Part shown: positions 33,479 through 34,058 of the stretch, one piece after another
Layout of the letters: each line of letters begins with the position of its first letter
How positions within the stretch are numbered: the stretch's first letter is position 1
Source of the DNA: Aselliscus stoliczkanus
Taxonomy: Eukaryota > Chordata > Mammalia > Chiroptera > Hipposideridae
Direction: 5' to 3'
Assembly (NCBI GenBank): GCA_033961575.1
Contig: CM066737.1
Span: forward strand, 51,250,771 to 51,314,770
Length of the DNA stretch: 64,000 nt
Made by a program: the position numbers and the translations under genes
Notes under the pieces: model-generated
Database searches by the model: none
What the model was told of the DNA's origin: nothing
What the model saw: only the letters and a program-made list of their open reading frames with translations

Positions 33479-34058
33479 GGCAATTGCATATGGCTGAAAA
33501 AGTTCCCCTTTGGAGATTTTTTTTTTATCATATTTTAAAAGCCAGATATATTTTTTAAAGCTCATGCCTACAATAATTACATAGTCATGGAACATCGAAA
33601 CGAAGATGATGAACCAAAAGGCACGCTGCAGAAGTTCAAGAGGACAGAGGACAGAACTGTTCTCTTTTGGTTTGGTTTGTTTCCAACACAGGAGGAAAGG
33701 GAGAGAGGTATGTTAAAATTACTTTTCAGAGGAAGGTTTCTGTCAGTCGCAGCCATTAGCGTTGGCTTCCTTCCTGCTGGTCCAGAGCAATCCGTCCTTG
33801 CATTGGCCTCTGAGGGCACCCTCAGTCTTCCGCTGTGTAGAGGTGATACATCAGGGCCACGGCCAGCGCTGAGATGGCGGGGATCACCCAGTTGGTCCAC
33901 CAGCTGGAATTAGAGTCAACAGTAGTAATAAGAGTTTCCGCAGGCTTGGTTATCTTTGATCTGTCATCTGGATGCAGCTCGCCAATGATGTATGTCCCTT
34001 TGGAGATTTTGGAGATGTTAAGTCCATCAAATCAAGTGCAAGTGATATGTTTGAAATG
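33479..34058 (+). pseudogene. GUCY2F: GUCY2F exon E5: kinase-homology exon split by a CYB5A retrocopy
   Basis: The left half (33479-33520) follows the acceptor TTCTTTTTAG and encodes GNCIWLKKFPFGDF. The right half (34011-34058) continues GDVKSIKSSASDMFEM and ends at donor GTATGA. Joined, the halves give exactly 30 codons in phase with the neighbours. Between them lies a minus-strand CYB5A cDNA copy. The 15-base duplication CCCTTTGGAGATTTT (33506-33520 and 33996-34010) is itself exon sequence coding for PFGDF, so insertion happened into an existing coding exon. The inserted 490 nt destroy the kinase-homology domain frame. Confidence 0.92.
33521..33995 (-). pseudogene. CYB5A: CYB5A (cytochrome b5) 5'-truncated processed retrocopy
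   Basis: Read on the minus strand, 33995 to 33822 encodes 57 codons plus stop, beginning TYIIGELHPDD and ending SWWTNWVIPAISALAVALMY, HLYTAED. This is the C-terminal 57 residues of microsomal cytochrome b5 (family length 134), including the tail anchor that holds it in the ER membrane. The haem-binding core is absent, so no b5 function is expected. The rest, 33821 to 33521, is 3' UTR ending in a T run on the plus strand. There are no introns, and 15-bp target duplications flank it: a typical L1-mediated retrocopy, 5'-truncated. It lies antisense inside a GUCY2F exon. The 57 codons hold no stop. Confidence 0.93.

Follow-up and report, generated by a model that had tools for sequence, protein, structure and literature searches.

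GUCY2F and its split seventh coding exon

The window, by which we mean the whole 64,000-nucleotide stretch of DNA analysed, carries the middle part of GUCY2F (protein GC-F) on its plus strand. The gene is laid out as 18 coding pieces in order, the outermost lying 19.5 kb before the left edge of the window and 14 kb past its right edge; exons 1-2 fall on the left side and exons 15-18 on the right side. The reading frame is open in coding exons 4 (16850-16936), 5 (20790-20888), 6 (27788-27919), 9 (47640-47795), 10 (52828-52974), 11 (56545-56694) and 14 (63709-63888). Damage is present in exon 3 (15115-15467; a frameshifting deletion near 15403-15407 and a TGA stop at 15417-15419), exon 8 (44558-44733; a 1-bp deletion near 44625), exon 12 (58898-59065; a TGA stop at 58994-58996 and a 2-codon deletion near 58924) and exon 13 (59847-60036; a 2-bp deletion near 59862).

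A further exon is split by an insert within 33479-34058. Its left half, GNCIWLKKFPFGDF (33479-33520), is preceded by an ag acceptor, and its right half, GDVKSIKSSASDMFEM (34011-34058), is followed by a gt donor. Taking away the insert and one copy of a 15-bp duplication joins the halves (33479-33520 and 34011-34058) into 90 bp, or 30 codons in phase, between the ag and the gt. By eye count in an alignment, 25 of these 30 residues equal those of Equus and 25 equal those of Rousettus. The flanks align to mammalian GUCY2F, and a claim made earlier from the letters alone, that the duplication consists of exon sequence and that its removal with the insert restores 30 codons, holds. The label 'E5' used in that earlier note was right in pointing to a GUCY2F coding exon and wrong in its number, as this is, by our count, the seventh of the 18 coding pieces.

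GUCY2F appears as a single locus next to a syntenic neighbour, as is expected of a unitary pseudogene. Specifically, among the best 42 of 245 candidates scored, only C11 carries matches to the GC-F extracellular part at >70% identity, and IRS4, a neighbour of GUCY2F in human, is found on the same contig at a distance of about 410 kb. No uninterrupted second exon 7 was found, the exon flanks matching at 0 of the 11 other genomic places that carry the 15-mer of the duplication. A separate locus on C13 (8.34-8.35 Mb) was taken for GC-E, the main photoreceptor cyclase; ten of its 11 listed pieces are free of stops and the eleventh has one TAG that perhaps lies beyond the exon.

The insert is a processed copy of CYB5A

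The insert (33521-33995, 475 bp, minus strand) is a spliced and 5'-truncated retrocopy of CYB5A that lies antisense to GUCY2F. Its minus strand codes for the C-terminal 57 residues of a cytochrome b5, followed by a stop and a 3'UTR, and the best match of these residues among solved structures is the cytochrome b5 chain 2m33_A (E 1.8e-29, query 1-57 against chain 78-134). The 15-bp target-site duplication CCCTTTGGAGATTTT lies on the plus strand at 33506-33520, within the left half of the exon, and again at 33996-34010. This 15-mer occurs exactly twice in the window and the two copies are identical at 15/15 bases, while two matches at ≤1 mismatch arose in 0/100 shuffles. Its length falls within the range of about 7-20 bp usual for processed pseudogenes. 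A run of 10 T at 33517-33526 corresponds to the copy's short poly(A) tail; four bases of the run overlap the duplication and are common to both, 5-6 lie past it, and the first base of the run is also found in the parent. Owing to this run the right edge of the duplication is ambiguous by ≤4 bases. With the insert in place the exon frame stops after 19 codons at an inserted TAA (33536-33538, plus strand), and since the 490 bp gained overall are not divisible by 3, the frame is shifted as well. Note that a tail of about 10 bases is short for a copy with only 0.4% divergence from its parent. A short way right of the exon, 34548-35200 looks by eye like the 5' region of an L1 element.

A genome search with the insert returned 10 places: the insert itself, three pieces of a gene with introns on C12, and six more. 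The C12 gene (110408356-110400618) is the parent CYB5A, and the pieces of it that were examined are free of stops. Four of its consecutive exons match the insert, with joins that fall exactly at the intron borders, so that the copy lacks three introns of the gene in the same genome at three exact splice junctions; it starts inside a coding exon and ends in the A run. The first 28 bases of the insert were matched to the C12 gene by local search and are absent from the genome-search listing. Over 470 aligned bp the copy and the parent differ at two positions (window 33730 and 33668), both in the 3'UTR. Thus the CYB5A origin, antisense orientation and 5' truncation that had been proposed are borne out, and the insert is a young, well-preserved processed pseudogene.

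Five of the six other places were aligned and are older CYB5A copies, which are 82.5, 86.3, 87.4, 88.9 and 89.1% identical to the parent with gaps left out. These five (L032, L033, L034, L035 and L036) lie on C13 twice, C5, C2 and C6, and the shorter sixth place (L037) lies on C5. They point to what may be repeated retrocopying of CYB5A. Four of them cover both differing positions. At insert position 266 the parent's C is present in 4/4 older copies, which indicates that the copy changed there. At position 328 the copy's A is present in 3/4, with the fourth having C, which is neither base of the pair; the parent therefore probably changed there. On this comparison one of the two differences is on the branch of the copy and the other is most likely on that of the parent. 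Both may nevertheless belong to the copy: the parent has a CpG at position 328, where parallel change is possible, the three copies in support could descend from a single ancestor, and the fourth has a third base. For this reason the tests below were rerun with both changes placed on the copy.

GUCY2F is disabled in six other exons

A frame-aware alignment to human GC-F revealed 11 disabling lesions spread over six exons other than exon 7 (negative coordinates lie left of the window). Five are in-frame stops, at -19446, -19290, -7655, 15417 and 58994, and six are frameshifting indels, near -19358, -19330, -7776, 15407, 44625 and 59862. The human query is two residues off record P0001, and the stops and frameshifts are independent of those residues. 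Two candidate splice losses stand outside this count, namely AA at 15113-15114 in place of the exon 3 acceptor AG, and AT at 27920-27921 in place of the GT expected as the exon 6 donor.

The protein has also changed at many conserved sites. Among 32 GC-F rows, one low-quality row having been dropped beforehand, 55/567 residues that are invariant in the 31 other mammalian rows are replaced here, as compared with 4/583, 7/583, 1/577, 1/577 and 8/584 in five control rows that were each set against the rest. Exon 7, being 90 bp long and in phase, might be left out of the transcript without shifting the frame, but such skipping would be no rescue because the other stops and frameshifts would stay. 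With its five stops and six frameshifts, several lesions as in a unitary pseudogene, GUCY2F is an old unitary pseudogene.

The insertion most likely postdates the death of the gene

A retrocopy in a coding exon had been read in the earlier note as a dateable gene-killing event that either abolished RetGC-2 or landed after an earlier lesion. The insertion would indeed have been disabling by itself, given the early stop and the frameshift that it brings. If it had come first, however, every other lesion must have arisen during the time recorded on the copy's own branch. We used this branch as the clock, with one change in 470 bp (two if both are assigned there) and an assumed indel-to-substitution ratio of 0.10. 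Under one change, 1.5 disabling lesions are expected after insertion as compared with the 11 seen (P 0.0013). A ratio of 0.20 gives P 0.015, and two changes give P 0.0058 and 0.054, the last being the most lenient of the four settings. Three of the four settings thus leave too little time (P 0.0013 to 0.015) and one is compatible with insertion first, so by itself the lesion-count test is not overwhelming. The replacements at invariant sites also speak against this order. After subtraction of a background of eight there are 47, as compared with 3.9 expected (P 1e-6), or with 6.5 if both changes are on the copy (P 1e-5), and one change in 470 bp, or at most two, is too few for an excess of about this size. 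The GUCY2F record of Hipposideros larvatus is also degraded, and its protein model has no insert in exon 7. It is accordingly very improbable that the insertion killed the gene and that every other lesion followed.

With 11 other lesions and only two base differences from the parent, the insertion most likely postdates gene death, which is the second of the two alternatives raised in the earlier note. On these statistics, rather than on DNA from relatives, the insertion does not come out as the earliest lesion, as it would in a gene-killing exonic insertion of the Poc1a type. The observation made from the letters was correct and its headline reading most likely was not, and it was on gene killing that the interest had rested. 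The insertion can be dated as had been supposed, but this does not date the loss of the gene.

In units of neutral change per site, GUCY2F has been without selection for about 2.4% (from lesions) to 3.8% (from replacements), versus about 0.2% for the copy (1 in 470), which puts the gene at about 11 to 18 times the divergence on the branch of the copy. At an assumed substitution rate of about 2.2e-9 per site per year, and with the two differences in 470 bp shared between two branches, the copy would be roughly 1 million years old (95% Poisson range about 0.1 to 3.5), and the decay of GUCY2F would roughly span 11 to 17 million years. The ratio of the two divergences is firmer than these absolute dates. 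The short tail counts against so young a copy.

An old insertion that was held similar to its parent by gene conversion, with its age therefore underestimated, would account for the high identity over 470 bp and would also fit the short tail. Conversion tracts would then have to span the entire spliced copy from a donor that bears introns and lies on a different chromosome. In addition, both target duplications are still identical at 15/15 bases, and the five other CYB5A copies have not been homogenised (82.5-89.1%). We give conversion hardly any credence. That the insert is an assembly artefact or chimeric join, which a single assembly as source would allow, is extremely unlikely in light of the target duplication, the A run, the exact splice junctions and the substitution private to the copy, all marks of a real insertion.

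Relatives and the host lineage

The GC-F record of Hipposideros larvatus (P0038, marked LOW QUALITY PROTEIN) runs uninterrupted through exon 7, although a protein model could have skipped an insert. This record lacks single residues at 12 points, three of which coincide with lesions here. Specifically, at three of the 11 lesion positions (human residues 447, 842 and 870) the Hipposideros protein is short by exactly one residue, as would be expected of a stop or frameshift common to both. These gaps may mark ancestral lesions shared with Hipposideros, in which case the loss would predate the split from it; two of the three residues are Arg codons in human that are open to repeated CpG change. 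Among 563 comparable sites, 10 are changed in both this gene and that of Hipposideros, five of them to the same residue, which by hand calculation is about twice the 4.4 expected if the changes were independent.

In a GC-F protein tree this gene joins Hipposideros larvatus (support 0.999) and then the fruit bats Rousettus and Pteropus (0.912). Bats do not form one group in this tree, with Saccopteryx standing apart beside the frog outgroup, a placement that we take for an artefact, and we do not trust its deep branches. A tree of IRS4, an intact gene on the same contig, again joins this animal with Hipposideros (0.924) and then with Rhinolophus (1.000). IRS4 identities are 90.8% to Hipposideros, 91.3% to Rhinolophus ferrumequinum and 84.4% to Pteropus. 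Both trees agree with the bat host assumed in the earlier note, and on these sequences the host is a rhinolophoid bat, probably outside Rhinolophus and Hipposideros. Its genome measures 2.19 Gb. No whole mitochondrial gene was found in it, only five cytochrome b matches (L039-L043, on C2, C12 and C1) that each contain stops under the standard code and are perhaps nuclear copies of mitochondrial DNA. SINE queries gave partial matches only.

Proposed mechanism and significance

We conclude, with high confidence overall, that the insert is a spliced, 5'-truncated, antisense CYB5A copy that L1 target-primed reverse transcription most likely placed in exon 7 of GUCY2F, long after the gene had been disabled. 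Copies made by this process in trans are recognised by a spliced template, an A run, a target duplication and 5' truncation. All four are present here, in keeping with the L1-type mechanism that had been suggested, and from them we infer that L1 was the agent. In such a sequence of events GUCY2F would have been inactivated by prior lesions. The L1 endonuclease would then have cut the plus strand at GATTTT|GG, the resulting TTTT end would have annealed to the mRNA's poly(A) tail, and an early halt of reverse transcription would have left the copy truncated at its 5' end. An insertion into a gene in this state would have had little or no effect on fitness. The T side of the site TTTT|GG fits the consensus TTTT|AA and its A side departs from it. 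Among the best 150 of 23,411 candidates scored, the genome holds reverse-transcriptase frames that are open for up to 1282 residues, about the size of a complete L1 ORF2, and their length and number suggest that these open ORF2-like frames are L1.

Known systems show that neither this kind of insertion nor the loss of GUCY2F is new. According to Gesemann and Neuhauss (PMC7674705), GUCY2F is a pseudogene in most microbats but has stayed intact in megabats and in Megaderma lyra; a count of 'insertion' and 'retrotranspos' in the main text of that paper gave 0 for both. The available parts of PMC4199690, which describes two stop mutations in GUCY2F of Myotis davidii, and of PMC10061024, which also treats GUCY2F loss in echolocating bats, make no mention of a retrocopy. 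A literature search found no text joining CYB5A with a retrocopy, none on GUCY2F with Rhinolophus and none on bat LINE-1 retrocopies with Rhinolophus.

The closest parallel is the chagun allele of mouse Poc1a, where an antisense Cenpw cDNA sits in exon 8 with a 15-bp duplication (PMC4619696). Both cases have a processed antisense cDNA in a coding exon, a 15-bp target duplication, a T run and the L1 type. They differ in that a working gene was broken in Poc1a, with disease as a result, whereas the host gene here has many other lesions. In Poc1a, moreover, the copy is complete but for 7 bp at the 5' end of the transcript and has a T run of 61 (PMC4619696); here the copy is strongly truncated and the T run is 10. 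There is likewise a resemblance to gene retrocopy insertion polymorphisms, which are recent mRNA copies with target duplications; among human non-reference insertions of this kind an exonic breakpoint is given for 1/48 (PMC3663115). Those polymorphisms segregate in populations (PMC3663115), while here we have one genome only.

We regard this as a clean but ordinary late insertion. It illustrates that a conspicuous insertion in an exon may pass for the cause of gene loss until the copy is dated against its parent and lesions are counted elsewhere in the gene, which reverses the order. It also records the decay of GUCY2F in one more rhinolophoid lineage. More tentatively, the insertion could be private to this bat species and perhaps segregating on the X, in which case it would be a sign that L1 still copies mRNAs in a rhinolophoid bat today, and only the prior release of the gene from selection would account for its presence in an exon. 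At the assumed rate, the copy is evidence that mRNAs were retrocopied in the rhinolophoid lineage during roughly the last few million years.
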